A DNA stretch of 36,563 nucleotides from the IMG/VR virus record IMGVR_UViG_3300033821_000103, positions 1-36,563 of that record. One strand, written 5' to 3'. A program made the position numbers and the translations under genes. This stretch comes from a virus. Positions 14,050 to 28,663 of this stretch are shown one piece after another. Every line of letters starts with the position of its first letter. Within the stretch, counting starts at the first letter, position 1. A model generated the notes under the pieces. The model was not told the origin of the DNA, searched no databases, and saw nothing but the letters and a program-made list of their open reading frames with translations.

Positions 14050-14056
14050 GGTTGTC

Positions 14057-14808: not shown

Positions 14809-14874
14809 AAAAAAAAGTCCCATCGCCACAGATTGCTCTGTGATGATGGGACTTTCTTGGTTAAGAACTTTCCC
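14809..14874 (-). promoter_or_regulatory. Left late leader element: conserved box plus GNRA hairpin and U8 (terminator/antiterminator candidate)
   Basis: Minus strand, 5' to 3': GGAAAGTTCTTAACCAAGAA (plus 14854-14873), then a hairpin with outer stem GTCCCATC/GATGGGAC (14845-14852 with 14817-14824), inner stem CACAGA/TCTGTG and loop GCAA, then eight T (14809-14816). Taken alone it is a strong intrinsic terminator. A near copy precedes the right late operon (28575-28641) in the same orientation to transcription, with compensatory changes in both stems. It lies downstream of the left late promoter and upstream of the endolysin gene, so late transcription must pass it. Confidence 0.85.
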
Positions 14875-14915
14875 TGGCGCCGCTATGTTTTAGGTGCGGC
14901 TATTATGATTGCTCT

Positions 14916-14944
14916 AATATAGCATGTGAAATTCGAAAAATCAA
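14916..14944 (-). promoter_or_regulatory. Left late promoter, sigma-70-like
   Basis: Minus strand: TTGATT (14939-14944), a 17-base spacer, and TATATT (14916-14921). It sits between the lipoprotein stop and the leader element and points at the endolysin-capsid-tail genes. The right late promoter has the same -10 hexamer, the same spacing and a -35 that differs only at the fifth base. The transcript leader also carries a GCCGC/GCGGC stem (about 14881-14900). Confidence 0.65.
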
Positions 14945-14974
14945 TAGGTAGAAGGCTATGTCAAAAATTTATTT

Positions 14975-15712
14975 TCATTGAGACCTGTCCTTTGAATATA
15001 ATCGAATTTGAAACGAAGCGCTCCAGACCGACATCGAAAAATTCATACCAGGGTTCATAGGGTAATTTACGGACTGATGGTTAATGTGGATACCGTAAGA
15101 GACATTTGGCGCTGCCGTATAAAGCAACTCGGTACCGAAGGATAATCGGGTATCATTGCCGGAGGAGGATCCAAGTTCGGAATGTATGAGATCGGCCCCG
15201 CCGTTGAGGAATATCGAGATATTGCCGACATAACCATCAGGACCTAAACCATTGGTAGGAGTCGATGGGGGAATATATTCCAGCGGTTGAGCTACGGGCG
15301 CTTCCTCTGCAGGCAATACTACCGGTTCCGGAGCCCTCTCTGCCAATATCCCAACCTCCATTTCGCCACCGTTCCTCTTATAGACGTGGAATCTATAGGT
15401 TAAATCTCTACTCATCCAGATGTAGAAGTTTTCTCCTATCTGGAGGTTATGGATTGACGAACTATCCCAGGGTTCACTTGTATAACGCCGAACCCCGCCA
15501 ATTCCGGTGAATATCATAGACGCTGATGAATCGATATAGGTTGCAGAAATATGCGAGTCTGTAACCTGATTCCTCTTGCCGTTCTTAAAAGTTTCCGTAG
15601 ATTCACCCGCCAACGCCGATGCGCGTATGATATTTTCATGCCAGGAACTTTCCGATACTCCGCCACAACCCGAAATAACGAGTGTGGCGAACAATAATAT
15701 ATAATATCTCAT
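14975..15712 (-). CDS. Lipoprotein co-expressed with the repressor (lysogenic conversion candidate)
   Basis: 245 residues with a lipoprotein signal: MRYYILLFATLVISGCGG, lipobox VISGC with Cys16 as the modified residue. The mature part has a Pro-rich linker around 130-155 (APEPVVLPAEEAPVAQPLEYIPPS). It ends in beta-strand-rich sequence (SYGIHINHQSVNY, then WSASFQIRLYSKD) reminiscent of an outer-membrane beta domain. Its ATG overlaps the repressor stop (ATGA), so it should be made whenever the repressor is, that is, in the lysogen. Prophage lipoproteins expressed this way often block superinfection or change the cell surface. That role is inference, as I recognise no family. Confidence 0.8.
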   Translation of the reverse strand: MRYYILLFATLVISGCGGVSESSWHENIIRASALAGESTETFKNGKRNQVTDSHISATYIDSSASMIFTGIGGVRRYTSEPWDSSSIHNLQIGENFYIWMSRDLTYRFHVYKRNGGEMEVGILAERAPEPVVLPAEEAPVAQPLEYIPPSTPTNGLGPDGYVGNISIFLNGGADLIHSELGSSSGNDTRLSFGTELLYTAAPNVSYGIHINHQSVNYPMNPGMNFSMSVWSASFQIRLYSKDRSQ

Positions 15713-16152
15713 GACTTGCTCTCCTTTGTTTGATTCGTTTTCTCTTGGTCTTTTTCTTTCCCGATTTCGCTAATTACACTCTTATCCAAAGCCCTCTGAA
15801 GATCAACTACAGTATTGATACCAACGAGGCTGAGGTAGAGTAACATTTTCCCTTCCTCGTCTTTTGGAACGAAGCCGAGCATCGTAGCCTGTTCTTTTAC
15901 CGTTCCGGCATATTTTGCATTCATTTCATCACGACTGAGTCCGGTAATTAGCCATCCGATATCACAACCCAATTCGTTCAATTTATCTTGCATTTTGTTC
16001 CCCGGCAGAGTTTTACCGGAGACATAGTTGTTAAGGGTCTGAGGCTTAACACCCAATGCCTTTGAAAAATCCGTCAAGGTGCGGTATTTTTTAAGACCAA
16101 ATTCCCTCAATCTGAAGGCAATTTGAACCCTTTTATTATTATCCTCTGACAT
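15709..16152 (-). CDS. XRE-type HTH repressor (c-like)
   Basis: 147 residues. The N-terminal 70 form an HTH domain: 'RVQIAFRLREFGLKKYRTLTDFSKALGVKPQTLNNYVSGKTLPGNKMQDKLNELGCDIGWLITG' (read in parts; recognition helix around KPQTLNNYVSG). There is no LexA-type protease domain. The C-terminal half is short and helical and may mediate oligomerisation. It is transcribed divergently from the A/B operon across a 94-base control region, the standard repressor arrangement. Its HTH domain is clearly related to both HTH domains of the protein at 16485-17087. It is followed by a coupled lipoprotein gene. Confidence 0.85.
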   Translation of the reverse strand: MSEDNNKRVQIAFRLREFGLKKYRTLTDFSKALGVKPQTLNNYVSGKTLPGNKMQDKLNELGCDIGWLITGLSRDEMNAKYAGTVKEQATMLGFVPKDEEGKMLLYLSLVGINTVVDLQRALDKSVISEIGKEKDQEKTNQTKESKS

Positions 16153-16168
16153 GGTTTAAAATAATATG

Positions 16169-16174
16169 ATTATA
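16169..16174 (-). promoter_or_regulatory. Candidate -10 of the repressor promoter
   Basis: TATAAT on the minus strand. Seventeen bases upstream is ATGATA (four of six match TTGACA). Only about ten bases would separate the transcript start from the ATG at 16152, so the leader would be very short or the true promoter lies further upstream. Tentative. Confidence 0.35.
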
Positions 16175-16205
16175 AGCTTGCTTTTTAAGATTATCATCGT
16201 ATATT

Positions 16206-16222
16206 GTACTTATCAGTACTTA
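16206..16222. promoter_or_regulatory. Candidate operator in the repressor/early intergenic region
   Basis: GTACT TATC AGTAC (16206-16219) is a perfect inverted repeat, and GTACTTA also occurs twice with a 10-base period (16206-16212, 16216-16222), one helical turn apart. It lies between the divergent repressor and ner-like genes, where a repressor or Ner-like dimer should bind. A rightward early promoter must overlap this stretch, but I cannot place its hexamers with confidence. Confidence 0.5.
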
Positions 16223-16246
16223 GACACAATAAGATAGGGTTTCAAA

Positions 16247-16471
16247 ATGTTAAGAACAAGCTATTATGACTTTGACAAGGCTCTCGACATTTACTCCGAG
16301 ATGAAGCGAAAAAATATCAGTACATATTTCCTCGCAGACCGATTCAATTGTTCTCAGGCTCTCATATCAAAAGTCCTTCGGGGTACACGTCAAAACAGAG
16401 AGTTATATAATTCGATAAAATCATTTGTCCGATCATCGCAAATCCGTCGCCGTCAACGCAAAGCTGCTTAA
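16247..16471 (+). CDS. Small HTH regulator, Ner/Cro-like position
   Basis: 74 residues, first gene of the rightward early operon. The middle has an HTH-like pattern (ISTYFLADRFNCSQALISKVLRGTR) and the C-terminus is very basic (SSQIRRRQRKAA). In Mu the first early gene, ner, encodes a small HTH protein that shuts down early and repressor transcription. This gene has the same place and size. Sequence similarity to Ner itself is not evident to me, so the functional name is positional. Confidence 0.7.
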   Translation: MLRTSYYDFDKALDIYSEMKRKNISTYFLADRFNCSQALISKVLRGTRQNRELYNSIKSFVRSSQIRRRQRKAA

Positions 16472-16484
16472 GGAAAAAAATACC

Positions 16485-17087
16485 ATGCCCACCGTTGGTC
16501 AAAAGATTAGAAAATTTGCAGAGAGTAGATACGGAACTTGCTCTGCGCTCGCCAAGAAATTGGGAGTATCTCGACAATACATCGAACAATTCGCAAACGA
16601 CAAAGCTTTTCCTGGAAAAGTCATATTGGCGAAATTAGAAAAAGTCGGTTGTTCACCTTCTTGGCTTTTGGGACCGGGTAACCGAAATGCCCGAGTACTC
16701 ATCATGTTCAGACTTCGTAAATATGCAACGAAAAAATATGGGTCGATTCGAGAGATGGCGAGACAACTTGGAATGTGCCCTGAAACGGTGCACCAATATG
16801 CAAGCAGTGGAAAAGTCCCGAGCAAAAGACTATTGGATCGACTGCGAGTTTCGGGCATCGATATGAAATGGCTTCTCACCGGGAAAAGAACTCCTGCAAA
16901 GAAACCAGATATCATCCATATCTCTCTGAGCGAACTCAACAAACCCATCAGCATAAAACACTTTCAAAAAGGTGATCGAAAAAAAGTTATCGTTGCAGTC
17001 GGAAAATATCGTTTTCATTCCTCAAACCCGCAGGCCGCTTCGTTCATCCCTGCATTGATAGCGCTGCTGACAAATGAAATTAATTAA
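16485..17087 (+). CDS. Tandem double-HTH regulator
   Basis: 200 residues from the ATG at 16485, chosen because AAGGA lies about 11 bases upstream and the previous gene ends at 16471. A longer frame from 16425 overlaps that gene. It contains two successive copies of the repressor-type HTH domain: residues about 5-65 (YGTCSALAKKLGVSRQYIEQ ... VGCSPSWLLG) and about 70-130 (YGSIREMARQLGMCPETVHQ ... SGIDMKWLLTG). Both match the repressor at 15709-16152 (GCDIGWLITG). A C-terminal domain (130-200) follows. It looks like a fused dimer of two HTH units and may compete with the repressor for operators. Its regulatory role is inferred. Confidence 0.75.
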   Translation: MPTVGQKIRKFAESRYGTCSALAKKLGVSRQYIEQFANDKAFPGKVILAKLEKVGCSPSWLLGPGNRNARVLIMFRLRKYATKKYGSIREMARQLGMCPETVHQYASSGKVPSKRLLDRLRVSGIDMKWLLTGKRTPAKKPDIIHISLSELNKPISIKHFQKGDRKKVIVAVGKYRFHSSNPQAASFIPALIALLTNEIN

Positions 17088-17343
17088 TAGTTCAATCACG
17101 TTAGGGCATCGGCAAAGTTTCATCGCGCAAGCGCTGGAAATCAGATGCCAAAATACATCCCCGTTCACGTCACTCCTCCTCCGTGACCGGGTTGCCTCAT
17201 CACCTAGCACAGCGGCGCAGTTTTTTTGTGGATTACTCGCGCCGCTCGATGAGGCTGCAAAGCGCATCCCGGCTACCCTGTATTTCACCCATTTAATCAG
17301 CCGTAGACGCGGCTTGAATTTTCCAAGTCTCATTAATTGACCT
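17088..17343 (+). other. Stretch without a convincing gene
   Basis: 256 bases between two early genes. An 88-codon frame covers it (17074-17340) but overlaps the previous gene, has no ribosome binding site and reads with unnatural composition. A shorter frame from about 17141 (MPKYIPVHVTPPP) stops after 13 codons. The minus-strand frame is a shadow. It may be a decayed small gene or an untranslated spacer. Confidence 0.4.
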
Positions 17344-17691
17344 ATGGCAGCCCTGAACGTCTCCGAAGCCTTCACAGCCTTAAATCTGAAACACGGCACA
17401 ATCAAGAAAGCATCTATCGCGTTAGGCATTAGCGACTCCGATATTCACAACTATCTCCGGGGCCGGAAAGTGAAAGTGAGCAAGAAGGCGCAGCGCATCA
17501 TCCGCCAGCACCTGGTGGAGATCGGCGTCGTCGCTGCGCCTCAATTGAAGCCGCGCCACGAATGTCCCGATTGCGGCAAGAGCCATGTGGTAAGAGTTAA
17601 TCATCCCTCGCAATCTACCAAATCCATCGAGGCCGGTCAACGCCAAACCGTTGCGGAAATTTCCGCATCGAAAATTAGAGCGGGTGAATGA
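17344..17691 (+). CDS. Small HTH plus zinc-ribbon-like regulator
   Basis: 115 residues. The first 60 look like a DNA-binding HTH (AFTALNLKHGTIKKASIALGISDSDIHNYLRGRKVKVSKKAQ). Residues 72-85 (RHECPDCGKSHVVR) hold a CxxC pair with a nearby His that could bind zinc. The tail (85-115) is basic and probably flexible. An in-frame TGA lies one codon before the ATG, and no strong ribosome binding site is seen. It precedes a CII-like gene with which its stop overlaps, placing it in a regulator cluster ahead of the transposase. Confidence 0.65.
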   Translation: MAALNVSEAFTALNLKHGTIKKASIALGISDSDIHNYLRGRKVKVSKKAQRIIRQHLVEIGVVAAPQLKPRHECPDCGKSHVVRVNHPSQSTKSIEAGQRQTVAEISASKIRAGE

Positions 17692-18023
17692 CAATGACAC
17701 TTGCGGAAGTGCTCTACATCACGATCAAGAACTGGGAACTCGCTGAGTCGATCCGGCGGCGCGATAAGAATTTTGATGCGTTCAAACATTTATCTGAGCT
17801 TATCGGCAACAAGAATCCATCGACGCTGCGGAAGATGTGCAACGAACGCGCGCACGAGAACGGCGCGAAGCTCGGCTATGACGAAGCGATTGCCATTATG
17901 GCGGAGACCGGAGACTACCGGCTTCGCCAGTACGAAAAAGAAATACTCGAATCAAAACGAAAACATATCGACGGGCAGATAGATTTGTTTGCCTCGCCGA
18001 TAACAGATTTACATCACGAATAA
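17688..18023 (+). CDS. Phage regulatory protein, CII-like
   Basis: 111 residues. It resembles the phage regulatory CII-type family of Mu-like and related phages: 'KNFDAFKHLSELIGNKNPSTLRKMCNER' followed by 'LGYDEAIAIMAETGDYRLRQYEKEIL'. Such proteins bind DNA through the N-terminal helices and control the early operon. Its ATG overlaps the previous stop (ATGA); a second ATG two codons on is also possible. It is followed after 15 bases by a small gene with a good ribosome binding site. Confidence 0.65.
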   Translation: MTMTLAEVLYITIKNWELAESIRRRDKNFDAFKHLSELIGNKNPSTLRKMCNERAHENGAKLGYDEAIAIMAETGDYRLRQYEKEILESKRKHIDGQIDLFASPITDLHHE

Positions 18024-18038
18024 CGAAAAGGAGCAGTT

Positions 18039-18236
18039 ATGAAAAATTCAACATCGAAATTTTTAGACGGCATGGGCGTGCCGCAGAACGTTCTCACAGA
18101 CGATAAAGAAGAATATCGCAGCACCTATGTAGTCGACCGTCTTATCTTCAATAGGGAAGGCAAGTTGATGCATGTGAATCTCACAGTTGGAAACGATCCC
18201 AACACACGCTTAATCAGAGATGCGCGGATATCATAG
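18039..18236 (+). CDS. Hypothetical protein
   Basis: 65 residues with a good ribosome binding site (AAAGGAG seven bases before the ATG). The sequence is polar and beta-rich (YVVDRLIFNREGKLMHVNLTVGNDPN) with no recognised motif. It is the last gene before the transposase. A 49-base AT-rich gap follows, carrying an AACATTCAAAACTGAAAACT type direct repeat. Confidence 0.55.
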   Translation: MKNSTSKFLDGMGVPQNVLTDDKEEYRSTYVVDRLIFNREGKLMHVNLTVGNDPNTRLIRDARIS

Positions 18237-18285
18237 GATCGTCAGTGAACAATTCAACATTCAAAACTGAAAACTTGAAATTATT

Positions 18286-20343
18286 ATGAGCTGGCTTACT
18301 ATCACACAGGCAATGGCGGTGAGGAAGTGCAGCAAACAATACATTTACCGGTTGATAAAGAACGGAAAGCTGGAATCGCGCGCAACAGCAGAAGGTACGC
18401 TGGTGTGGCTTGACGATAATCCCGTGTTGGATTCCCTCCCTTACGAAGGGGAGGAGACGCGCAGCGGCGGAGGGGTTAAAGAAGTGAATATTCCCGTCAT
18501 TTCGCAATCGCGCGTTACGGACGAGCTGCTGAGGAAGATTGACGGCATGTTGCGCTCCATCGCCGCATCGGGGGATATCGTCGCCACTGAAATGGATGTG
18601 GAAGCGAACTACGATATCAATGCCCGTATCCAGCGGATATACAAAGGAGAACTCCGGACGCTATTCGGCGTTCCTTCCAGGGGATCAATCGATCAGCTCA
18701 TTTACCATCCGCAGATCCGCCAGGCGCTGGAGTATGTTATCGCCCGCAAAGGCCGCAGCGATAAACTGACGATGAGAGCGGCGAAGGGACTGTGCATTGT
18801 GAAGAGAGCTACTGGCGAAATGGTAAGCATTGAAGAGCATTTAATCTCCCTTTACGCGCGCGAAAATGTGAACGCCGACGCTTGTTATGAAGCTCTCAAG
18901 GGATTATGCCTGAAGCGCCTTGTTGTGAAAGCGGATGGTTCGCCCGCGATGCTTGCCGATCTCCCGGCTGAATCAACCGTGACGCGGTGGCTGCGGGATA
19001 TCCGCACCAAAGGCAATAGAGCCGCCGCCATTAAAATGGGACGCATGAGAAAGAATGATTTTGCCGCGAACGAACTCGCCTATGTAACGCGAGACCCGGA
19101 GACCTATGCGCCGGGCGAGATGTGGGTGGGCGATCATACGGAATTGGATTTTCTTGTCATCAATGAGAAGGGCGAGCCCGACCGCCGGTGGATGACGGCA
19201 TTTGTGGACTTCAACACGCAGCTCCTCGTCGGGTATCATTTATCGTGGATGCCAAACAGCCAAACCATTGCCCTTGCTTTCCGCGCCGGAGTTACCGGCT
19301 CGCAGCTCAAGGCGAAGAAGGCGGCGGCGGAAAGCGAAGAGAGCCTCGGCGAATTTGTGCCGGTCAATAGTGTTAACGTACCCGCGCACATCACGGTTGA
19401 TAACGGCAAGGATTATAAATCGAAAGCAACCGGGCGGCTCATCGGAAAAATTAATTTCGATGACGACAGCCGCCGCAGCGTTCAACGGATCACCCATCTG
19501 CACTATTGCCTGCCGTACCACGGCATGAGCAAAGCGGTGATGGAACGATGGTGGGGAATATTCCAGCAAATGATTAAATATCTCCCCGGCTACAAGGGCA
19601 ACCATTACCAGAACAAGCCGGATACGCTGGCGAAGGACATCAAGCAGAACGCGCTGTTGACGGTTGAAGAGTTCGATGCGATTGTTGCCGTTGCTGTGAA
19701 CTCCTACAACAACCGTGAGAACTCGCGACACCAGGGAACTTCGCCGCTCGTCCATTATCTCACCAATCTTCCATCGCAGCGGACAATCGATATCCGCGTG
19801 CTGGACTTCCTCATGATTCACGCGAAGCCGAAAACGATCAGGCGATGCCAGGTTGAATTTCCGTTCGGCGAATATTACAGCGACGCATTGTTGAAACACA
19901 ACGGCAAACGGGCCGACGTGTACTACGACCCGAATGACTTAGGATTTGTGTCGCTGTACGTCGATGGCGAGTTCGCTGCGGTCGCTTGCAACAAGGCGTT
20001 GATCGGCAAGAGTGAACGGGGAAATCTCTCCATTGTCGCGGAACGAAGGGCAACCGAAAAGCAATTGCGCGATCAGCTTGCGGCAATACACGGCGGCCTC
20101 ACCGACCGGGAAGCGTGGATGCAGCTCTTAGAAGGGCAGCTATTGAATACGATGGACGTGGATGAATCGCTCATCCTGAAGCAGCGGCCAACGATTGTAT
20201 TGATGACGGGAATTGAAAGCGACGCGGCGCAAACAATGGATAAGATCGAACAGGAAAAAGAACTCGTTGAAATTGAAAAGCAACGCGAGAAGCGCAACAG
20301 GAATAGAAGCTGGACGGCGGACGACGTGGCGAATGTGAGTTAA
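18286..20343 (+). CDS. Mu-type DDE transposase (A protein)
   Basis: 685 residues, close to the length of MuA. Residues 1-45 are an excisionase-type winged HTH (SWLTITQAMAVRKCSKQYIYRLIKNGKLES). Further DNA-binding helices follow to about 260. The catalytic core has Asp283 (WVGDHTELDF), Asp372 (ITVDNGKDYKS) and Glu420 (AVMERWWGIFQ), the DDE triad. The core ends in a beta-barrel region (VYYDPNDLGFVSLYVDG) and a charged C-terminus that should contact the B protein. It catalyses replicative transposition and integration of the phage genome. Residues about 49-66 (SLPYEGEETRSGGGVKE) are encoded by a palindromic mini-repeat inserted in frame at 18435-18480. The start lacks a strong ribosome binding site. 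The B-like ATPase lies downstream after three small genes. Confidence 0.95.
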   Translation: MSWLTITQAMAVRKCSKQYIYRLIKNGKLESRATAEGTLVWLDDNPVLDSLPYEGEETRSGGGVKEVNIPVISQSRVTDELLRKIDGMLRSIAASGDIVATEMDVEANYDINARIQRIYKGELRTLFGVPSRGSIDQLIYHPQIRQALEYVIARKGRSDKLTMRAAKGLCIVKRATGEMVSIEEHLISLYARENVNADACYEALKGLCLKRLVVKADGSPAMLADLPAESTVTRWLRDIRTKGNRAAAIKMGRMRKNDFAANELAYVTRDPETYAPGEMWVGDHTELDFLVINEKGEPDRRWMTAFVDFNTQLLVGYHLSWMPNSQTIALAFRAGVTGSQLKAKKAAAESEESLGEFVPVNSVNVPAHITVDNGKDYKSKATGRLIGKINFDDDSRRSVQRITHLHYCLPYHGMSKAVMERWWGIFQQMIKYLPGYKGNHYQNKPDTLAKDIKQNALLTVEEFDAIVAVAVNSYNNRENSRHQGTSPLVHYLTNLPSQRTIDIRVLDFLMIHAKPKTIRRCQVEFPFGEYYSDALLKHNGKRADVYYDPNDLGFVSLYVDGEFAAVACNKALIGKSERGNLSIVAERRATEKQLRDQLAAIHGGLTDREAWMQLLEGQLLNTMDVDESLILKQRPTIVLMTGIESDAAQTMDKIEQEKELVEIEKQREKRNRNRSWTADDVANVS
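18435..18480 (+). repeat. Palindromic mini-repeat inside the transposase gene
   Basis: CCCTCCCTTACGAAGGGGAG and a downstream GGAGGGG belong to the same family as the intergenic repeats. Here the unit keeps the reading frame and encodes a Gly/Glu/Ser-rich linker between the N-terminal HTH and the rest of the transposase. Confidence 0.7.
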
Positions 20344-20345
20344 GA

Positions 20346-20582
20346 ATGAAGAGTGAAGAATTAAGAGTTAAGAATGATTTTTTGAAAACGTTCGAGGAAC
20401 GGAAGCCGGTGAAGAGCAAACAGATACGGGATGCCGTTATCGATGTTATGCGTCATGATTTGAGTGGTGGTGGAAAGTTGCTTGAGAAAGATGTCCTCGT
20501 TTTCAGCAAGGGCGTTCCGTACCGGGCAAATATTAACGGCTCGAAATTCACTGTAGAAGAGATTACGCAATTTTATTCATGA
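20346..20582 (+). CDS. Hypothetical early protein with repeat-derived N-terminus
   Basis: 78 residues. The first ten (MKSEELRVKN) come from an AT-rich direct repeat that recurs at 26108-26135, where it encodes KSEELRAKN in another small gene. The rest (FEERKPVKSKQIRDAVIDVM ... GVPYRANINGSKFTVEEITQFYS) is unrelated and probably the original protein. It begins three bases after the transposase stop. Unknown function. Confidence 0.6.
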   Translation: MKSEELRVKNDFLKTFEERKPVKSKQIRDAVIDVMRHDLSGGGKLLEKDVLVFSKGVPYRANINGSKFTVEEITQFYS

Positions 20583-20593
20583 AGGAGAAGACA

Positions 20594-20860
20594 ATGCCTA
20601 ATACAAGCGACAAGACGATACGCCCAAAGAAAGAGTGGGAAGTGCCATACCCGGAGCAAGATACCTGTCCTATGTTTAACTGTGAACATCTGAAGCATTA
20701 CACTCAGGCAGTTTGTACTCCGTGCTGGAAAATGCTTCCCGCGCATATCCGACGCGCCTATTCCGCTGCATTCAGTTTTTACGCGAAGCGTCCAATTGAT
20801 GGTGAACAAAGATTAAGCGACGCCTACGAAACAATGATTAATTATTTCAAATGGGAATAA
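20594..20860 (+). CDS. Small Cys-rich protein, paralogue of 26617-26829
   Basis: 88 residues from the ATG at 20594, preceded by AAGGAG (a frame from 20579 is longer but overlaps the previous gene). It contains CPMFNC ... VCTPCWKMLPAHIRRAYSAAF. The protein at 26617-26829 has the matching pattern CPVMGC ... MCITHWHAVPKPLQDAVWRAF. The four Cys/His could bind zinc, followed by a helix with aromatic and basic residues. The function is unknown; the pattern suggests a phage nucleic-acid-binding or protein-binding zinc module. Confidence 0.65.
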   Translation: MPNTSDKTIRPKKEWEVPYPEQDTCPMFNCEHLKHYTQAVCTPCWKMLPAHIRRAYSAAFSFYAKRPIDGEQRLSDAYETMINYFKWE

Positions 20861-20876
20861 TCAAAAGGAGAAGACA

Positions 20877-21068
20877 ATGTACACATATATTTCAGACGGA
20901 CTTTATTCCCCTACGGACTTCCGAAGATTCGAGAGCAAGGAAGCTCTTCTGAAAGAGTTTCCCGAATATAAATCGGTGTTTGATATTGGCGACGTAAGGA
21001 ACGTTTACATCAAAATTAAAGAGCCGCGTGGAGAGCGGTTCATCCAGATCGCGGAGGTGCAATCATGA
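20877..21068 (+). CDS. Hypothetical early protein
   Basis: 63 residues, start supported by AAAAGGAGAAGACA directly before the ATG, the same leader as the gene at 20594. It has aromatic residues at the N-terminus (MYTYISDGLYSPTDFRRF) and a beta-rich C-terminus (VRNVYIKIKEPRGERFIQIAEV). The stop overlaps the B-like gene start by four bases, so the two are translationally coupled. No family recognised. Confidence 0.55.
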   Translation: MYTYISDGLYSPTDFRRFESKEALLKEFPEYKSVFDIGDVRNVYIKIKEPRGERFIQIAEVQS

Positions 21069-22009: not shown

Positions 22010-22070
22010 CAACCTCACCCATCCCTCTCCTGCGAGGAGAGGGCGTGATTATATAAAAGGACCAAGGAAT
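22010..22070. repeat. Palindromic repeat followed by AAAGGACCA start cassette
   Basis: A hairpin at 22023-22043 (CCTCTCC/GGAGAGG) is followed by ATTATATAAAAGGACCAAGGAAT directly before the next ATG. The AAAGGACCA leader recurs before five other early genes. Confidence 0.7.
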
Positions 22071-22283: not shown

Positions 22284-22339
22284 ATCACCCCATCCCCTCT
22301 TTGACAAGAGGGGCGCAATTATAAGAAAGGACCAGACAA
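22284..22339. repeat. Palindromic repeat followed by AAAGGACCA start cassette
   Basis: A hairpin at about 22295-22314 (CCCCTCTT/AAGAGGGG) is followed by GCGCAATTATAA and AAAGGACCAGACAA before the ATG at 22340. The hairpin plus GCGCAATTATAA matches the minus-arm repeat at 8255-8284. Confidence 0.7.
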
Positions 22340-22780
22340 ATGAAGAACGAGCGGAAAACGGCAGGGAAGCCGACGTTGGAGATATTCCCGGCAAACGACC
22401 GGGCGACGGAAGCGATCTTAAAAAATCTCCACACCACGAAGCGCGAAATCAAGACCTGGCACGATATCGATATCGCGATGCAGGAATTTGATTTTTTGAA
22501 GACGCATATCAGCGCCCTCAACAGCACGGAGCTGAAGGAATATCAGGCCATCATTGAGAAGCGACGCGAGCCACTCACCCAGCTCAACGAAGCGAAGCAG
22601 ATGATCGTCACGAAAATCGAAACGTTTTGCGCGAAGCATAAGGCGGAAATGAAGTTCGCCGTGGTCGACGGCGAGAACGTTGGATCGCGAAGCCTGCCGC
22701 ACGGCACGGTCACGTTTGTCCAGGTAACGAAGGTGCGATTTAAACCGGCGCAAGCAAACGGAGACGCGGTGCAGCAATGA
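22340..22780 (+). CDS. Gam-like DNA-end-binding protein, divergent paralogue
   Basis: 146 residues. A long helical region (LNSTELKEYQAIIEKRREPLTQLNEAKQMIVTKIETFCAKHK) leads to 'VGSRSLPHGTVTFVQV', the signature turn of Mu Gam proteins (compare RSKELTHGTVGFRI in the clear Gam at 24515-25039). Gam binds DNA ends, resembles Ku and protects ends from nucleases. This copy has a different N-terminus and ends shortly after the signature, lacking the C-terminal helices. It may dimerise with the second Gam. Its stop overlaps the GemA gene by four bases. Confidence 0.65.
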   Translation: MKNERKTAGKPTLEIFPANDRATEAILKNLHTTKREIKTWHDIDIAMQEFDFLKTHISALNSTELKEYQAIIEKRREPLTQLNEAKQMIVTKIETFCAKHKAEMKFAVVDGENVGSRSLPHGTVTFVQVTKVRFKPAQANGDAVQQ

Positions 22781-23280
22781 CCCTCCAGGAACGCAAACGG
22801 ATTAACAGCAAGGCGCATGCAATCGCGCACTCGCGGCTCGGCATGGATAGCGAGCAGTTCGGGATCCTTGTCAGCGCGGCCGATCCGGCAAGCGACGGAC
22901 ACATCTCCCGTTGCAGCGACGAGACGGCGTTGAACATCCTGATCGAGATCCAGAAGATGGCGCGCGCGGGGAAGGCGTCACAATCGTCGCAGCAGGGGCA
23001 AATCGCCCGGCTGATGGAGATCCTCGGCTGGACGTGGAGCAACACGGCGGAGTATTGCTTCAAGATCACCGGCAAAAAAAATACGAAAGCTTGCAACGCG
23101 CCGGAACTTTCAAAAATCATACGCGGGATGATTGCCACAATCGACCATCATCTCGCGTCCGGGCGTATCGTGATGAACCATACCGAGCGGTTTAATTACG
23201 AGAGCCACGTGCGAGTGCACCGGGAAGCAAGGAACAAGGAAGAAGGAACAAGGAATAATGCCGAGACGAAGACTGTCTAA
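22777..23280 (+). CDS. GemA/gp16 family regulatory protein
   Basis: 167 residues with the GemA pattern: an N-terminal 'RINSKAHAIAHSRLGMDSEQFGILV', then 'QQGQIARLMEILGWTWSNTA' and 'APELSKIIRGMIATIDHHL'. In Mu, GemA alters host gene expression and DNA gyrase activity after infection; the family is common next to gam. The ATG overlaps the stop of the first Gam-like gene. The last 15 residues (EARNKEEGTRNNAET) are encoded by an AAGGAAGAAGG type repeat that also provides the ribosome binding site of the next gene. Confidence 0.85.
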   Translation: MTLQERKRINSKAHAIAHSRLGMDSEQFGILVSAADPASDGHISRCSDETALNILIEIQKMARAGKASQSSQQGQIARLMEILGWTWSNTAEYCFKITGKKNTKACNAPELSKIIRGMIATIDHHLASGRIVMNHTERFNYESHVRVHREARNKEEGTRNNAETKTV

Positions 23281-23752
23281 ATCGGACATCAAAATCGTCT
23301 ATCAATCGAAGTCGATACCGGAGCTCGTTATCGATGAGCGCCAGCTCGCGCTGTTGAAGGAGCGGTTTCCTTCTGTGACGTCGTTCCGGCAATATGTGCT
23401 GGATGCCGAAGCCTGGTTGCTGGATCCGGCGAATGCGAAGAAGTATCCGAAGCTGCTATTCCGGTTCATTTACAATTGGATCGACAAAGCGCTGATGATG
23501 GCGCCGAGAAACGCAAAGCCAGGTCCGCAATACGGCGATTCGGCGAAGGCTGATTTCATCCCGAAAGCGAAGAAGGAAGCGTATTTATTTGAAAAGAAGG
23601 ATAAGAAGGACCGGACAATGGAGAGCGTTCACTCGCTCACGAACATTTTGAATACGATAAAAGAGAAATCGGGCGACACGCCCACCCCTCAATCCCCTCC
23701 CTTGCAGGAGGGGAAAAACAGTTCGAACACGTTAGAAAGGACCAGACAATGA
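23258..23752 (+). CDS. Hypothetical early protein, C-terminus encoded by mini-repeat
   Basis: 164 residues; starts inside the end of GemA with AAGGA five bases upstream of the ATG. It is basic at the N-terminus (MPRRRLSKSDIKIVYQSKS) with a helical core (SFRQYVLDAEAWLLDPANAKKYPKLLFRFIYNWIDKALM). The last 25 residues (TPTPQSPPLQEGKNSSNTLERTRQ) translate a palindromic repeat (23694-23713) and the AAAGGACCA cassette, so the original stop was probably lost or the repeat inserted in the gene end. Unknown function. Confidence 0.65.
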   Translation: MPRRRLSKSDIKIVYQSKSIPELVIDERQLALLKERFPSVTSFRQYVLDAEAWLLDPANAKKYPKLLFRFIYNWIDKALMMAPRNAKPGPQYGDSAKADFIPKAKKEAYLFEKKDKKDRTMESVHSLTNILNTIKEKSGDTPTPQSPPLQEGKNSSNTLERTRQ

Positions 23753-24009
23753 AAAACAAAAGATTCAGACCGATACCCAGGACAGATTATAATATGGAAA
23801 TCAAACTAATTCCAATCCGCAAAAAAATATACAGCTCTCTCTGCAGGATACTTCCAGCAGATTTTGATGATTGCGTAATTGATGGAGCCGCAGACGCCGC
23901 CGTAGATCAAATACGGATGGAAACGAGGGCGCAGAAACGCCGGGATAAGAAGAACGCAAAAAAATCGAGAAGTGCTATTAACCAATCAGATGAAAGGACC
24001 AGGCAATGA
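23749..24009 (+). CDS. Hypothetical basic protein
   Basis: 86 residues with an AAAGGACCAGACA leader directly before the ATG. Very basic C-terminal third (ETRAQKRRDKKNAKKSRSAINQ), with a short middle region (LCRILPADFDDCVIDGAADAAVDQIR). The final residues ERTRQ are shared with the preceding gene because both stops lie within the same type of junction cassette. Possible nucleic-acid binding from charge only. Confidence 0.55.
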   Translation: MKNKRFRPIPRTDYNMEIKLIPIRKKIYSSLCRILPADFDDCVIDGAADAAVDQIRMETRAQKRRDKKNAKKSRSAINQSDERTRQ

Positions 24010-24494
24010 ATCCTCCAACAATATTCTTGCTCATCTTAGCCGGATGTGCGACAATCTATGCGTTAATATACGTCGTAAATAATTATCGCCGCGAGTGGAT
24101 CATAGCCAGGGGCATCGTCCGCAAGGACATCCTCGCCGAGGCGCGCGCGAAATATCCCCACGCGAAGGACGACGTCCATGCGATATCGAAGCTGTACCAG
24201 GACCGCAATATCAATCTCAGTATCGCCCGGTCGAAGAACGAAGACACGAGCGGCATCAAGCACGAGATGCGCTTTATCCTGGATTACCGCGCCGAGCTGA
24301 TCGGCGAGGCTATCGATAACGACTCATCGTATGTTGTGCCGAAAGCAGACGCCTATATAAACGAGGATGGATCGCCGAAGTTCCTCAGGCACATTTTGGA
24401 CGGCAGGGGAACAACGCCGAAACCGCATCAGACGATTCACCTGGACACAATAACGGAAGACCCGATAATTCATCGATCAACAACCAACATTTAA
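24006..24494 (+). CDS. Membrane-anchored hypothetical protein
   Basis: 162 residues. Residues 4-26 are one membrane segment (PTIFLLILAGCATIYALIYVVNN). The remainder is cytoplasmic-type and helical (RKDILAEARAKYPHAKDDVHAISKLYQDRN), with a variable tail. The leader AAAGGACCAGGCA precedes the ATG. No recognised family. An anchored early phage protein next to Gam could act in superinfection control or replication at the membrane, but nothing in the sequence settles this. Confidence 0.6.
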   Translation: MNPPTIFLLILAGCATIYALIYVVNNYRREWIIARGIVRKDILAEARAKYPHAKDDVHAISKLYQDRNINLSIARSKNEDTSGIKHEMRFILDYRAELIGEAIDNDSSYVVPKADAYINEDGSPKFLRHILDGRGTTPKPHQTIHLDTITEDPIIHRSTTNI

Positions 24495-24514
24495 CACTAT
24501 CACAAAGGCAGTTT

Positions 24515-25039
24515 ATGGCAAAGTTAAAAACAACACTTGTAACGTGGGAAGACGTCGACCAGGCGCTGCTCAAGATCGGTAAGGCATTAACATACGTCCA
24601 GAAGGAAGAAGCGGAAATGAACCGAAAGCTTCAAGAGGTGCGCAATAAATATGAATCGAATACGTCTGAGAAAATAATTGAGATCGCTTCTGCGGAGATC
24701 GATATCGAGAGCTGGTGCGAATTGAATAAAAATCAGTTTGAGACCGTCCGCTCGAAAGAACTCACGCACGGAACGGTTGGTTTCCGGATCACGCCGTCGA
24801 AGGTTTCCACTCTCAATAGGAAATATACGTGGGCCACGGTTCTGGAGCTCATGAAGAAATTCAAGTGGGCGGCGAAATTCATCCGGACAAAAGAGGAACC
24901 GGATAAGGAATTGCTGCTGAAATCTATTTCCGCCGGCGAGGTCGACGACGTGAAGCTTGCCGCCATCGGTCTGAAGGTGAATAAGCAGGATAAATTCGGT
25001 TACGATATCAAGTGGGATACGCTTGGGGAAGTGAAGTGA
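24515..25039 (+). CDS. gam: Host-nuclease inhibitor Gam (Mu Gam family)
   Basis: 174 residues. N-terminal 'TTLVTWEDVDQALLKIGKAL', then a long coiled helix (YVQKEEAEMNRKLQEVRNKYES), 'IEIASAEIDIESWCELNKNQFE' and the Gam signature 'RSKELTHGTVGFRITPSKVSTL', followed by C-terminal helices and 'GLKVNKQDKFGYDIKW'. Mu Gam is a Ku-like dimer that binds double-strand ends and protects them from exonucleases. A second, diverged Gam-like gene lies 1.7 kb upstream. Its stop overlaps a GTG start of the next gene. Confidence 0.93.
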   Translation: MAKLKTTLVTWEDVDQALLKIGKALTYVQKEEAEMNRKLQEVRNKYESNTSEKIIEIASAEIDIESWCELNKNQFETVRSKELTHGTVGFRITPSKVSTLNRKYTWATVLELMKKFKWAAKFIRTKEEPDKELLLKSISAGEVDDVKLAAIGLKVNKQDKFGYDIKWDTLGEVK

Positions 25040-25257
25040 ATCCTTCGTTAGCCGGCGACGAGCCGAAAGGCGGATGGAACGTTGTGGCGGGTAAGGTGTA
25101 TGACGCAATGCGGTTCATCCTTAAGCCCTGGGCGATCCCCGATACGGTCGCCCTCCGGGCCGCCGGCGCCGCAATGGACGAGATCAGGAAGTATTTTTTG
25201 GAAGTGAACAGTAACGCCACAATTCCAACAGAAGGAAAGGACCAAAGGAATGTATAG
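25036..25257 (+). CDS. Hypothetical protein, GTG start coupled to gam
   Basis: 73 residues if started at the GTG at 25036, which overlaps the gam stop as GTGA and has GGGGAAG upstream. A longer frame from GTG 25012 lies inside gam and is less likely. Sequence: GDEPKGGWNVVAGKVYDAMR followed by FILKPWAIPDTVALRAAGAA, compact with no known motif. The end translates the AAAGGACCA cassette of the next gene (GKDQRNV). Confidence 0.55.
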   Translation: MNPSLAGDEPKGGWNVVAGKVYDAMRFILKPWAIPDTVALRAAGAAMDEIRKYFLEVNSNATIPTEGKDQRNV

Positions 25258-25471
25258 GATTGTAATGCTGGGCGGAAAATACTACGGTGCAGAGTTCTAT
25301 GAACTCGAACACGAACTCGACAATCTTCACTCGCATTTAGACAATCAAGAGCCGGTTATACTTGTAATCGAACTTAACGACTTAGACAGAATCGGTATTG
25401 ATCCACGCGACGTCATTGTTGCCGGAACGAGCGACGAGGATGACACCGAGAAAGCTCCGGGGAAAATATGA
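25250..25471 (+). CDS. Small acidic hypothetical protein
   Basis: 73 residues, strongly acidic (ELEHELDNLHSHLDNQEP; TSDEDDTEK), with AAAGGACCAAAGGA before the ATG. The beta-alpha-beta feel (MYRIVMLGGKYYG ... EPVILVIELNDLDRIGI) and acidity would suit a DNA-mimic or a small inhibitor, but no family is recognised. Overlaps the next gene by four bases. Confidence 0.55.
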   Translation: MYRIVMLGGKYYGAEFYELEHELDNLHSHLDNQEPVILVIELNDLDRIGIDPRDVIVAGTSDEDDTEKAPGKI

Positions 25472-26097
25472 GCCGCAAACCGGGACGATTGCCGAAGGAG
25501 AAGGTTCTCCAGGAAATCAAGGACATGCACGATAAACTGGGACGCGCGCCGAAGGTTAAGGAAGTACCGGCATACATCGCCGACCGCGCGCTTGCCGAGT
25601 TCGGATCGTTCGAAAATGCGGTGATCCGGGCAACCGGAAAACCAGGCGGAAGGCACGAGTGGACCGACGAAGAACTGCTTGCGATAATTGCCAGGCTCAA
25701 CATTGATCTCGGCAGATTTCCGGGATGGGCTGATATCACGCGGCACAATAAGCGCTGCGCGAAAGTCATCGGCAACCGGTGGAAATCGCTCGACGAGGCG
25801 ATCAGGCTGGCGACCGGCATCTCGCCGAAGGAAACAATCCTCACGGCAATTGAAGCGCTCACGCCTCCGGGCTGCAGCGAATGTTCGAGCGCCGAGGTTA
25901 TAGAGGAGATCCACCGGTACGGCATAGGAATCACGGCGACTCAATGCGGACACTATTGCTACGAGATGGCGCAGGAGGGGCTGATCACATGGCGCAAGGG
26001 CGGGAGGATATCGACATACGCGTTGACCACTGAAGGCAGAAAAAAACTTCATAGCAAGATAGCAGATAGCAAAATAGCAAAAGGACCAACAGTATGA
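25468..26097 (+). CDS. DNA-binding protein with two HNH-associated repeats and winged-helix C-terminus
   Basis: 209 residues. Two copies of the homing-endonuclease-associated repeat: about 10-58 (LQEIKDMHDKLGRAPKVKEV ... FGSFENAVIRATGKPG) and about 66-115 (DEELLAIIARLNIDLGRFPG ... WKSLDEAIRLATG). Then comes a winged-helix-like region at 118-195 (SSAEVIEEIHRYGIGITATQ ... LTTEGRKKL). There is no HNH nuclease motif, so it likely binds DNA without cutting. A related two-repeat protein lies at 27955-28461, next to the right late promoter. Its end is encoded by an AGCAAGATAGCAGATAGC type repeat. A regulatory role is inferred. Confidence 0.7.
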   Translation: MSRKPGRLPKEKVLQEIKDMHDKLGRAPKVKEVPAYIADRALAEFGSFENAVIRATGKPGGRHEWTDEELLAIIARLNIDLGRFPGWADITRHNKRCAKVIGNRWKSLDEAIRLATGISPKETILTAIEALTPPGCSECSSAEVIEEIHRYGIGITATQCGHYCYEMAQEGLITWRKGGRISTYALTTEGRKKLHSKIADSKIAKGPTV

Positions 26098-26318
26098 CGC
26101 GAACGACTGAAGTGAAGAGTGAAGAGTTAAGAGCTAAGAATGGGAGGGAAAAAATCGAATGCGAAGAATGTGGAGAAGAAATCGCAAAGGGAAATCGCCG
26201 CCGTCGATGCATCGATTGCGGGAAACTCGTGTGCCCCTGGTGTATGCATCATATCCATGAATTAAATCAGGCAATACGAAGAGGAACATTTAAACTCGGA
26301 AGCCAGGTGCAGCCATGA
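26094..26318 (+). CDS. Small zinc-finger protein with repeat-derived N-terminus
   Basis: 74 residues. Two zinc-binding knuckles: CEECGEEIAKGNRRRRCIDC and GKLVCPWCMHHIH, seven Cys and two His in all, suggesting a treble or double zinc fold. Residues 7-16 (VKSEELRAKN) derive from an AT-rich repeat shared with the gene at 20346. It overlaps both neighbours by four bases. DksA/TraR-type proteins share the CxxC pair spacing in part, but the long coiled helices of that family are absent, so I leave it unnamed. Confidence 0.65.
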   Translation: MTRTTEVKSEELRAKNGREKIECEECGEEIAKGNRRRRCIDCGKLVCPWCMHHIHELNQAIRRGTFKLGSQVQP

Positions 26319-26620
26319 TTGACTTGAACGAAGAGCACGTGCACGCGTTTGTTCCGATCCTGGAGGGGAATGATACCGCCGGCCTGGTATGCACGGGATG
26401 CGGGTTTAAAATAATCGAGGATATGACGCGGACGGTGGAAGTTACGCCGGAGGGCCGCACATGCGGTGATATCTTTTATGACGAGAACGATCTGGATTGG
26501 CTTCAGAGACTCTTCGGCATAACATCACTTGATGCGTTGAAAGCCGTCTTCAGCGTTCTTGATCAGCGATTATCAAATGACGAGATACAGAAGGTGCTGA
26601 ACAGGAGGAGGGATTTATGA
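26315..26620 (+). CDS. Hypothetical protein with CxxC pair
   Basis: 101 residues. 'HVHAFVPILEGNDTAGLVCTGCGF' gives two His and a CxxC that could bind one zinc, as in C-terminal zinc ribbons. The second half is helical (DLDWLQRLFGITSLDALKAVFSVLDQRL). It overlaps both neighbours by ATGA, so it belongs to a coupled three-gene set of small zinc-type proteins (26094-26829). Unknown function. Confidence 0.6.
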   Translation: MIDLNEEHVHAFVPILEGNDTAGLVCTGCGFKIIEDMTRTVEVTPEGRTCGDIFYDENDLDWLQRLFGITSLDALKAVFSVLDQRLSNDEIQKVLNRRRDL

Positions 26621-26829
26621 ACGAACAACATTGCCCGGTCATGGGCTGCGCGAACGGGAAGGAAGCAGGCAATCTCATGTGCATAACGCACTGGCATGCG
26701 GTCCCGAAGCCGCTGCAGGATGCCGTATGGAGAGCGTTCAAAAACTGGGAACGCAATAAAAAGAATATGGTGATGCTCCGGGCATTGAAGAGCGCACAAC
26801 AACAGGCGATAAATTCAGTGAAGAGTTGA
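26617..26829 (+). CDS. Small Cys-rich protein, paralogue of 20594-20860
   Basis: 70 residues. CPVMGC ... MCITHWHAVPKPLQDAVWRAF parallels CPMFNC ... VCTPCWKMLPAHIRRAYSAAF of the gene at 20594, with the second pair as C..H instead of C..C. A basic, Gln-rich helical tail follows. Likely one zinc site. It is the last of three overlapping small zinc-type genes. Confidence 0.65.
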   Translation: MNEQHCPVMGCANGKEAGNLMCITHWHAVPKPLQDAVWRAFKNWERNKKNMVMLRALKSAQQQAINSVKS

Positions 26830-26864
26830 AAACGCAATTATGAATTATGAGTTTTGAATTTTAA

Positions 26865-27341
26865 ATGAACTCCTGGGAAAAGAATAAACGGCGTGAGGAG
26901 ATTTTGGAGCATTACGGTCCATTGACCGGGCTTCCTCTTTTCTCCGCGTCCGATGCTGCTCCGTCGCACGTGAAGAAACTTGTGAACGCGATACCGAAGG
27001 CAATTCCCATCGCGACCGATACTAAGCGCGCGGCGCACATGGCCGTTAACCTGGACGAGTACAAACTGGGCGAGAAGCAGACTGCAGTATACAATGTGAT
27101 CGCCTCGGGTACGGATTGGAGCATCATGGAGATTGCGAAGGAATTGCAATGGCAGCAAAACTGCGTTGGGCCCCGGGTGTTTGAGCTGCGGCAGCTCGGT
27201 CTGGTGGTCCCCGCCGATCGGCGGCAGTGCCGGGTGACGGGGAAGATGATACAGAGCTGGAAAGCGACCCCCACTATTCTCCCCCTTCAAAACAAGGGGG
27301 AGACGCAATCAGATTCAGACACAAGGAAGAAGGAAGAATGA
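26865..27341 (+). CDS. Winged-helix protein, C-terminus encoded by mini-repeat
   Basis: 158 residues. Residues 65-130 look like a winged helix (LGEKQTAVYNVIASGTDWSI ... AKELQWQQNCVGPRVFELRQLGLVVP, with a Cys/Arg-rich wing RRQCRVTGK), typical of phage regulators that sense or bind DNA. The last 25 residues (PTILPLQNKGETQSDSDTRKKEE) read through a palindromic repeat (27279-27302). The gene follows an AT-rich direct repeat (26830-26864) that provides a weak start context. Confidence 0.6.
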   Translation: MNSWEKNKRREEILEHYGPLTGLPLFSASDAAPSHVKKLVNAIPKAIPIATDTKRAAHMAVNLDEYKLGEKQTAVYNVIASGTDWSIMEIAKELQWQQNCVGPRVFELRQLGLVVPADRRQCRVTGKMIQSWKATPTILPLQNKGETQSDSDTRKKEE

Positions 27342-27377
27342 TCTGCACGGGTCAACTACTGTTTGTGGCGAAGAAAA

Positions 27378-27572
27378 ATGCCGAACGTTGAGGAACTTAT
27401 TAAATTATTGCGGAAGATTTCGGGGACTGTGGATATCGTGCACATTGACGTCGATTTCGGGAACGGTGAAGTTCACTGGAAGTCACAGGTGAGGGATTTG
27501 CAACCCGAGGAATATATTCCCCGGAAATTTAAGAAAAAGCATCCAGATTCTTCAGCAAGTGACATTCAATGA
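27378..27572 (+). CDS. Hypothetical protein
   Basis: 64 residues from the ATG at 27378 (a TTG frame from 27363 is longer). Sequence: VEELIKLLRKISGTVDIVHIDVDF followed by GNGEVHWKSQVRDLQPEEYIP, a small alpha-beta protein with a Lys-rich end. No family recognised. No clear ribosome binding site, so the start is uncertain. Confidence 0.5.
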   Translation: MPNVEELIKLLRKISGTVDIVHIDVDFGNGEVHWKSQVRDLQPEEYIPRKFKKKHPDSSASDIQ

Positions 27573-27634
27573 ACTTGCTTTTCAAAGAATCAAGAAGCGG
27601 CAATATCCGCTCCGAAAACGCGGCATTTTTATTT

Positions 27635-27705
27635 TATGCGCCAGCGTCATCCCGCTTTGTCGGGGTGGTAGCCGCTTCTTGTGCTATTGGACGCGCTGGC
27701 GCATA
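27635..27705. repeat. Inverted repeat with 12-bp arms
   Basis: TATGCGCCAGCG at 27635-27646 is matched by its complement CGCTGGCGCATA at 27694-27705. The 47-base centre contains a further small hairpin (CCCGC...GCGGG type) and GTAGCCGC. A second pair, TATTGGAC/GTCCAATA, spans 27684-27727. The stretch from 27573 to 27745 has no convincing gene. It may be a decayed MITE-like element or a regulatory fold before the next gene. Confidence 0.6.
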
Positions 27706-27745
27706 TTCGTTTTCACTATTGTCCAATAAACAAGAAGGTATCACC

Positions 27746-27958
27746 ATGTCCAATAATACAAAGCTGACGGCGTACCGGCGGTTCGTTGCCATCCACCAGG
27801 AAGCCGAAGCGTTCTTCAAGGCAATATTCCTCGTCCTCCATCCATCCGGCTGCCGCATCGATCTGTTGAGCGATGCAGATTTCCAAAAACTCGACATCTA
27901 TTCATCCAACTTGCGCGCGAGGGTGATTGTGATCGGGAAGATGAGGGGGACGATATGA
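27746..27958 (+). CDS. Hypothetical protein
   Basis: 70 residues from the ATG at 27746, which has GAAGG eight bases upstream. A longer frame from 27569 translates the inverted repeat and reads unnaturally. Sequence: KLTAYRRFVAIHQEAEAFFK then LLSDADFQKLDIYSSNLRAR, helical with conserved-looking aromatics. It overlaps the following regulator gene by four bases, so the two are coupled. Unknown function. Confidence 0.55.
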   Translation: MSNNTKLTAYRRFVAIHQEAEAFFKAIFLVLHPSGCRIDLLSDADFQKLDIYSSNLRARVIVIGKMRGTI

Positions 27959-28461
27959 CTATGCCTCGGCAATTCAATAATGATCGCATTTTCACACAGT
28001 CAGAATTGATCGGCATTCTGAAGAAGTATTTCGCCGAGAACGGTGAAGTTCCGACTCAGAGAGAATTGGGCAGGAGTAATGGTCTGCCGAGCAAGGCAAC
28101 ATTTTCGGAAAAATTTGGGAGTTACAATAACGCGATTATCGCAGCCGGGTTGGAACCTCGCCCCGCTTTCCATTCTGGGCAGAAACTCTATTCGGATGAA
28201 GACCTTTTCAAAAAACTCAAAGAGATCGTGTTGATTATTGGCCATATCCCGACACACGCTGATTTCGAAGGGATACGGGGGAAGGGCTACCCACAATTTC
28301 GTACTTATACGAAACGATTCGGGACGTTCGAGAATGCTCTATTGTTGAGTGGGATCCGGTACAATAGGATCAGATACTGGTTGCTCAAGAAAACCGGAGA
28401 TATTCACAAATTAATTAATTCGCTGGCAGCGTTTTTGCGCGAACCGTATAAAGTTATATAG
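27955..28461 (+). CDS. DNA-binding protein with two HNH-associated repeats; late regulator candidate
   Basis: 168 residues with two copies of the homing-endonuclease-associated repeat: about 13-62 (ELIGILKKYFAENGEVPTQR ... FGSYNNAIIAAGLEP) and about 77-130 (DLFKKLKEIVLIIGHIPTHA ... FGTFENALLLSGI). No nuclease motif follows. It is the last gene of the early region, 24 bases before the right late promoter and about 115 before the conserved leader hairpin. Mu places Mor/C, the activators of middle and late genes, near this point, and no Mor/C homologue is visible here. It is therefore the best candidate for a protein acting on the paired late promoters or leader hairpins. That is inference from position and DNA-binding type. 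Confidence 0.7.
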   Translation: MTMPRQFNNDRIFTQSELIGILKKYFAENGEVPTQRELGRSNGLPSKATFSEKFGSYNNAIIAAGLEPRPAFHSGQKLYSDEDLFKKLKEIVLIIGHIPTHADFEGIRGKGYPQFRTYTKRFGTFENALLLSGIRYNRIRYWLLKKTGDIHKLINSLAAFLREPYKVI

Positions 28462-28484
28462 TTGAGAAAAATTCTCGTTTGGTC

Positions 28485-28513
28485 TTGACTCAAGAGTGAT
28501 TTGTAGTTATATT
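28485..28513 (+). promoter_or_regulatory. Right late promoter, sigma-70-like
   Basis: TTGACT (28485-28490), a 17-base spacer and TATATT (28508-28513) point at the terminase operon. Same spacing and same -10 as the left late promoter (14916-14944). The leader then carries CGCGC/GCGCG and CCCCTT/AAGGGG stems before the conserved box. Confidence 0.7.
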
Positions 28514-28574
28514 TACGTAACCCCATCGCGCTGACGCGCGCTTCCCCTTAACAAAGGGGAAGAACAATGGAAGA

Positions 28575-28641
28575 GGGAAAGTTCTTTACCAAGAATGTCC
28601 CATTGTCGCAGAGAAATCTGCGGCGATGGGACATTTTTTTT
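28575..28641 (+). promoter_or_regulatory. Right late leader element: conserved box plus GNRA hairpin and U8
   Basis: GGGAAAGTTCTTTACCAAGA begins at 28575. A hairpin follows with outer stem GTCCCAT/ATGGGAC (28597-28603 with 28626-28632), inner stem CGCAGA/TCTGCG (28607-28612 with 28617-28622) and loop GAAA, then eight T (28634-28641). It is the counterpart of 14809-14874. Compared with that copy, one inner pair changes A-T to G-C and the pair closing the base changes A-T to T-A, so pairing is conserved. It should end early transcripts before terminase small unless it is bypassed. Confidence 0.85.
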
Positions 28642-28663
28642 GACCCACTAGCCCACCCCCAAC

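Follow-up and report, generated by a model that had tools for sequence, protein, structure and literature searches.

The window, by which we mean the whole stretch of DNA analysed here (36,563 bases), is the complete IMG/VR virus record IMGVR_UViG_3300033821_000103. It holds a transposable Mu-like phage with homologues of MuA and MuB, a Mu portal protein, gpF, gp36, an I-like protease and Gam. The late genes form two divergent operons, each headed by one copy of a twin leader element of 67 nucleotides (nt), in which a small hairpin, referred to as the box, overlaps a terminator hairpin. The left copy apparently controls the left late operon and the right copy the right one. The features of the locus are as follows.

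28485-28513, plus strand: right late promoter, TTGACT-17-TATATT
28575-28601, plus strand: right antiterminator hairpin (box), GGGA-AA-GUUC-UUUACCAA-GAAU-G-UCCC
28591-28640, plus strand: right terminator hairpin and U8 tract; 5' strand common with the box
28721-35592, plus strand: right late operon (terminase small and large subunits, D12 methylase, Mu portal, gpF)
14916-14944, minus strand: left late promoter, TTGATT-17-TATATT
14848-14874, minus strand: left antiterminator hairpin (box), GGGA-AAG-UUC-UUAACCAA-GAA-AG-UCCC
14809-14858, minus strand: left terminator hairpin and U8 tract; 5' strand common with the box
1517-14701, minus strand: left late operon, from endolysin (14701) leftward (endolysin, protease, capsid, gp36/gp37-like, tail fibre)

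The twin leader elements of the window

The two elements (14875-14809, minus strand, and 28574-28640, plus strand) are 88% identical in an ungapped comparison. The box pattern occurs twice in the window and nowhere else in it, compared to an expectation of 0 from 100 shuffles, so the twins described in the original prediction are real. The promoters of the form TTGAYT-17-TATATT, which had been placed ahead of both elements, were found there as well. Each copy forms a long terminator hairpin that has a GNRA loop (GCAA left, GAAA right) and is followed by U8. Elements of 77-81 nt had folding energies of -33.5 kcal/mol (z -5.3 against shuffles) on the left and -40.6 kcal/mol (z -8.2) on the right. 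The GNRA loop and the U8 tract had been taken as common features of the element; this holds for the two window copies, but the GNRA loop is not conserved in the wider family described below. Hairpin repeats of the CCCCTCCCTTGCAGGAGGGG type are dispersed between genes (22287-22317, 23687-23717 and 28656-28686, with similar sequence near 1420-1490 and 35870-36480), and the repeat at 28656-28686 lies directly downstream of the right element.

Compensatory differences between the two terminators had been a main part of the original prediction. Indeed, the two copies differ by paired changes in the inner stem (G-C/A-U), at the stem base (U-A/A-U) and at a wobble position (U.G/C-G), as predicted. 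One change, however, is uncompensated: G-C in the right copy corresponds to an A.C mismatch in the left. Pair changes across two copies alone are modest evidence, and the decisive evidence comes instead from the competing box hairpin, which the original prediction did not describe.

A family of elements with two covarying folds

Relatives were gathered by searches with portal, terminase and MuA and with a DNA pattern, and all of them are metagenomic contigs. They are co-linear with the window, and most of the proteins they have in common with it are about 30-60% identical. Besides the window, 13 lineages of this phage family have the element, and eight of them hold both divergent copies, 10-17 kilobases (kb) apart:

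G006: 14859 (minus), 27995 (plus); divergent twins
G021: 11907 (minus), 23963 (plus); divergent twins
G017: 16823 (minus), 16016 (minus), 30241 (plus); divergent twins and an additional left copy
G005: 6760 (minus), 19982 (plus); divergent twins
G030: 3196 (minus), 16592 (plus); divergent twins
G033: 7639 (minus), 21817 (plus); divergent twins
G034: 6058 (minus), 22753 (plus); divergent twins
G035: 6875 (minus), 19955 (plus); divergent twins

Single copies were found on shorter contigs (G003, G004/G020, G018/G019, G031, G032 and L169), and a related box, AGGGUNAUCCGAUNAYAAGGAGCCCC, is present in strong terminators upstream of the terminase genes of relatives. In the window and in G005, G006, G017, G021 and G033-G035, the late genes lie in two divergent arms flanking the early region, unlike the single direction of Mu, and such a split would be a reason why two matched late switches are needed. 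G035 has three tandem boxes preceding one terminator (L157 845-925; record 19845-19975), and a degenerate second box lies just upstream of the element in G019 (L103 1367-1446) and G004 (L106 about 8498-8590).

The box is an RNA hairpin consisting of an outer stem of 4-5 base pairs (bp) closed by U.G, a 2-nt bulge ending in an invariant A, a 3-bp inner stem and a loop of 5-8 nt. The covarying structure, (((((..(((........)))))))), has this single bulge on one strand. In every element, the 3' strand of the box is at the same time the 5' strand of the terminator, and therefore the two folds exclude each other.

Covariation was assessed in 16 boxes of equal length, using 500 shuffles and a register-slide control. 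In these boxes, 89% of the cells were paired compared to 73% in shuffles, changes on both sides were seen at six of eight pairs, and covariation reached 0.411 versus 0.109 in shuffles (0/500). All measures but one lay above every shuffle, the remaining one being reached by three, and the signal was lost when the register was slid by one column. The shuffles ignore phylogeny; the slide control, the diversity of stem types and a scan with a free inner stem (see below) make up for this in part. RNAalifold and RNAfold recovered the same fold unaided. Stem changes are carried through all three strands, as seen in the left elements of G033 (UCGGU / GCCGA / UCGGC) and G005 (GAGGU / GCCUC / GAGGC).

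Discovery was largely unbiased for the box fold, because six elements were chosen solely as terminators upstream of terminase genes. When 2.9 million viral contigs were scanned with the inner stem left free, 11 stretches with a downstream GC hairpin were obtained, most of them previously known members, and all had a complementary inner stem (3/3). The 13 chance sequence matches lacking a strong downstream hairpin had an inner-stem complementarity of 0-2. L169, which was outside the training of the covariance model, scored 26.5 bits and has a new inner stem, CUC/GAG. Judged from these sequences, it is near certain that the conserved elements form an RNA family.

Exact searches of viral and genome contigs with the window's own box gave no match, and the family pattern had none among 84,980 reference genomes; there is therefore no sign of a host repeat. 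Nucleotide BLAST against phages returned nothing meaningful. A structural scanner gave only four matches in 70 other Mu-like loci (970 kb), three of them weak and one of -25.6 kcal/mol with odd geometry, and the covariance model had no match in 41 Mu-like and other outgroup loci. Rfam had no match at the curated threshold in the window or four relatives, and this includes self-cleaving ribozymes of the type reported near Mu-like phage genes (PMC10085705). At E<=1, Rfam returned only unrelated chance hairpins. Two other candidates were dropped: a GUUAU/AUAAC stem inside the box, in which the column changes are non-compensatory (C-C, A-A), and a leader peptide or translation-coupled attenuator, since no common upstream open frame crosses the box.

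We also folded growing transcripts in silico. In all 21 elements, the box remained the most stable fold up to a point 1-9 nt ahead of the U tract; thereafter, the terminator (-23 to -47 kcal/mol) displaced the box (-5.6 to -10.3 kcal/mol). A promoter of the form TTGAYW-17-TANNTT, with hexamers near consensus, lies upstream of 20 of the 24 family elements. The spacing between the -10 hexamer and the box varies from 13 to 77 nt, whereas the register of box and terminator is fixed, which points to a switch acting at the RNA level rather than through a promoter-bound factor.

Loop agreement within phages and a candidate trans factor

The loops of the left and right boxes agree within a phage and differ between phages: the normalised edit distance is 0.129 within and 0.444 between phages (permutation p <5e-5). 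The terminator tops, by comparison, are nearly as unlike within a phage (0.512) as between phages (0.580). G033 shows this most clearly: its two copies differ at most stem pairs, yet both carry the loop GAUCAUAA. It therefore seems that a phage product reads the loop in both operons. Together with the twins in eight further contigs and the covarying, overlapping hairpin, this agreement favours on computational grounds what the original prediction had proposed, an antitermination or RNA-binding switch opening both arms.

Three conserved genes came into consideration for the putative trans factor:

27363-27572, plus strand: candidate trans factor, protein of about 65 amino acids (aa), conserved start 27378; no known family
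25468-26097, plus strand: second candidate, conserved; two HNH_repeat domains and a C-terminal winged helix
26865-27341, plus strand: third candidate, conserved winged-helix-like protein (phrog_1123)

The ~65-aa protein is encoded upstream of the right element in 14 of 14 contigs with a right element (two of which are near-identical). Eleven conserved phage proteins were compared against loop class, and the ~65-aa protein alone divided the phages into a group with 5-6-nt and a group with 8-nt loops (p 4/715; others 0.18-0.91). It also gave the best Mantel p values, both for right loops (r 0.51, p 0.0011) and for left loops (r 0.47, p 0.0053). By this protein, G034 and G035 cluster with G031/G030; by other genes, mainly with G003/G006 and G017. 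The original prediction had suggested the product of 27955-28461. This HNH_repeat protein is not universal, in contrast to the protein of 27363-27572, which is universal and, among the proteins tested, alone follows the loop sequence. The proteins of 25468-26097 and 26865-27341 do not track loop class. We regard the ~65-aa protein as a good lead for the trans factor, whereas the HNH_repeat and winged-helix proteins are possible candidates, with 25468-26097 ranked next. AlphaFold2 predicted a helix and a beta hairpin for the ~65-aa protein with moderate confidence.

Some further features of the phage stand apart from the switch. The presumed tail-fibre protein (1517-8215, minus strand, 2232 aa) combines glycosyl hydrolase 18, GDSL lipase and bacterial Ig domains. 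Two Mu Gam-like proteins are encoded in one phage (22340-22780 and 24515-25039, plus strand), only the second being common among relatives. A DUF559 or restriction-endonuclease-like gene (35944-36321, minus strand) lies at the contig end beyond gpF and may be cargo or host flank. Short AT-rich direct repeats of the GAAGAGTGAAGAATTAAGAG type are located at the starts of two small genes (20333-20390 and 26113-26142).

Probable antitermination of the late operons and its alternatives

We consider it likely that both late operons are controlled by antitermination resembling that of the ribonucleic antiterminator (RAT), exerted by a phage protein, most probably the one of about 65 aa. Each late operon would be transcribed from its own ordinary, probably constitutive σ70-type promoter, and the polymerase would then meet a built-in stop. 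The weak antiterminator hairpin (21-27 nt, with its 2-nt bulge and 5-8-nt loop) would form first, until the much stronger terminator reclaims its 3' strand and ends in the U tract. Unaided, the leader should end in the terminator fold and the late genes stay off; transcription arriving from the neighbouring repressor/lipoprotein and early genes would be blocked as well. A phage protein from the early operon would, late in infection, bind and hold the bulged hairpin, admitting polymerase to both late operons at once. In this scheme, default termination, the stabilisation of the hairpin by a protein and the identity of that protein are what we infer.

Several observations weigh against this scheme. 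The terminator is more stable than the box by a large margin, 16-38 kcal/mol, and a tight, fast binder would therefore be needed. Promoter calls are weak for two G017 copies and the left copy of G035. The association of the ~65-aa protein with the loop was put to the test only after it had caught our attention, the comparison took in 11 proteins, and the gene lies in linkage with the right element. More weight attaches to the match with the left element, which is 10-17 kb away. The model of the protein matched neither solved structures nor a known RNA-binding fold. Finally, the window boxes have diverged, and a covariance model built from the other members missed them at E<=10. We count them as family members because of their architecture, place and twinning: they keep the outer stem, the A-rich bulge, the inner stem, an 8-nt loop ending in CAA and the terminator overlap. 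The G032 box (GGGAU-CA-UUC-GAUAACAA-GAA-GUCCC) is intermediate, having UUC/GAA inner and GGGA/UCCC outer stems like the window and a loop like the other members.

In principle, the box could modify the polymerase, by recruiting factors or by its own action, like HK022 put, lambda nut or LoaP RNA, and make it disregard this terminator and later ones. A small conserved hairpin with a protein-readable loop early in the operon transcript would suit such a role, and there are phage precedents: HK022 put is likewise a hairpin in phage leader RNA and suppresses termination (PMC9378689). Put, however, acts on the polymerase without strand-sharing competition against a particular terminator. Signals of this kind need no terminator overlap, whereas here the strand is common to both folds in every element and covaries with both partners; moreover, no NusG-type domain was found. 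We therefore assign this explanation a small probability. It is also unlikely that the switch responds to another RNA, to a small molecule or to a protein of the host. Small riboswitches of similar size are known, as are antiterminator hairpins read by host proteins, and the trans factor here is a candidate named from sequence, but loops that agree within and differ between phages argue for a phage-specific reader, and a phage protein tracks the loop.

Negative control, in which the box is the default, the late genes are on and a phage factor removes the box to cause termination, would fit the early formation of the box, the most stable nascent fold for 20-50 nt. We think it very improbable, considering the 16-38 kcal/mol by which the terminator is favoured once its 3' arm is made, and a box closing pair that is nearly always a weak U.G where the terminator has C-G. 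Equally remote is the explanation that the elements are plain insulators, stopping read-through only, the box being either a conserved DNA site or a chance similarity. Strong terminators do separate the neighbouring transcripts from the late genes, but a terminator downstream of an operon's own promoter would silence that operon; in addition, the box stems covary as RNA, and the promoter distance varies while the terminator register is fixed.

The RAT fold comprises about 29 nt with two stems and asymmetric internal loops on both strands. In its principle, a leader hairpin overlaps the 5' arm of a terminator, and a protein holding this hairpin leads to read-through (PMC3369936). Like the targets of BglG, SacY and LicT, the elements place an antiterminator hairpin over the 5' arm of an intrinsic terminator in a leader. 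Unlike them, they lack the fold with two internal loops, having a single 2-nt bulge and a loop of 5-8 nt, and they precede phage late operons, not sugar operons. CAT_RBD (PF03123) was absent from 11 family genomes, while control genomes were positive; such a protein might still come from the host. Given this different RNA fold and the lack of a CAT_RBD match, the elements were not filed under RAT. ANTAR antiterminators (EutV, NasR, AmiR) also stabilise a hairpin competing with a terminator (PMC3369936, PMC8934654), as is proposed here. Their targets are paired hexaloop hairpins, unlike the one covarying hairpin per element with a loop of 8 or 5-6 nt. An ANTAR-domain search of the family genomes gave no match, although control genomes were likewise silent.

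In lambda, Q acts at pR'-tR', where a constitutive late promoter gives a short terminated leader and the antiterminator gene lies just upstream of that promoter. The elements resemble this arrangement in their constitutive-type late promoter, terminated leader and candidate gene a short way upstream. The site from which Q acts, however, is DNA and has a fixed position at the promoter, whereas here an RNA fold lies at variable promoter distance (13-77 nt). Phage_antitermQ (PF06530) was absent from the 11 family genomes, with a positive control, and Pfam scans of the window proteins revealed no other Q family, no genome-by-genome search having been made. The late operons of Mu are activated by Mor/C at weak promoters. 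Here the phage class and the problem of late-operon activation are the same, but the promoters are near consensus, and the Mor/C family (PF08765) was absent from the 11 family genomes (control positive). This agrees with the late control distinct from Mor/C that had been predicted.

To our knowledge, the late genes of studied phages are controlled by activators, new sigma factors, phage polymerases, and promoter-bound or nut-type antiterminators. Nothing comparable to the elements was described in the papers found in the open-licence literature, the part that could be searched. In our view they represent a new RNA family with, probably, a new protein, and a known principle in a place for which there is no earlier report. 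If confirmed, control of two late operons through twin terminator/antiterminator leaders and a matched trans factor would be a further mechanism by which phages turn on late genes. We give even chances to a more far-reaching proposal: that a dedicated RNA/protein antitermination pair replaced activator-based late control in these phages, that a new family of ~65-aa RNA-binding proteins reads the bulged hairpin, and that RNA and protein co-diverged to give two or more specificity classes (8-nt and 5-6-nt loops). Such co-divergence would make the family a natural collection of orthogonal antitermination switches. The elements would then offer a compact new RNA-protein recognition pair with natural specificity variants, testable with reporters and usable as a part for gene control.

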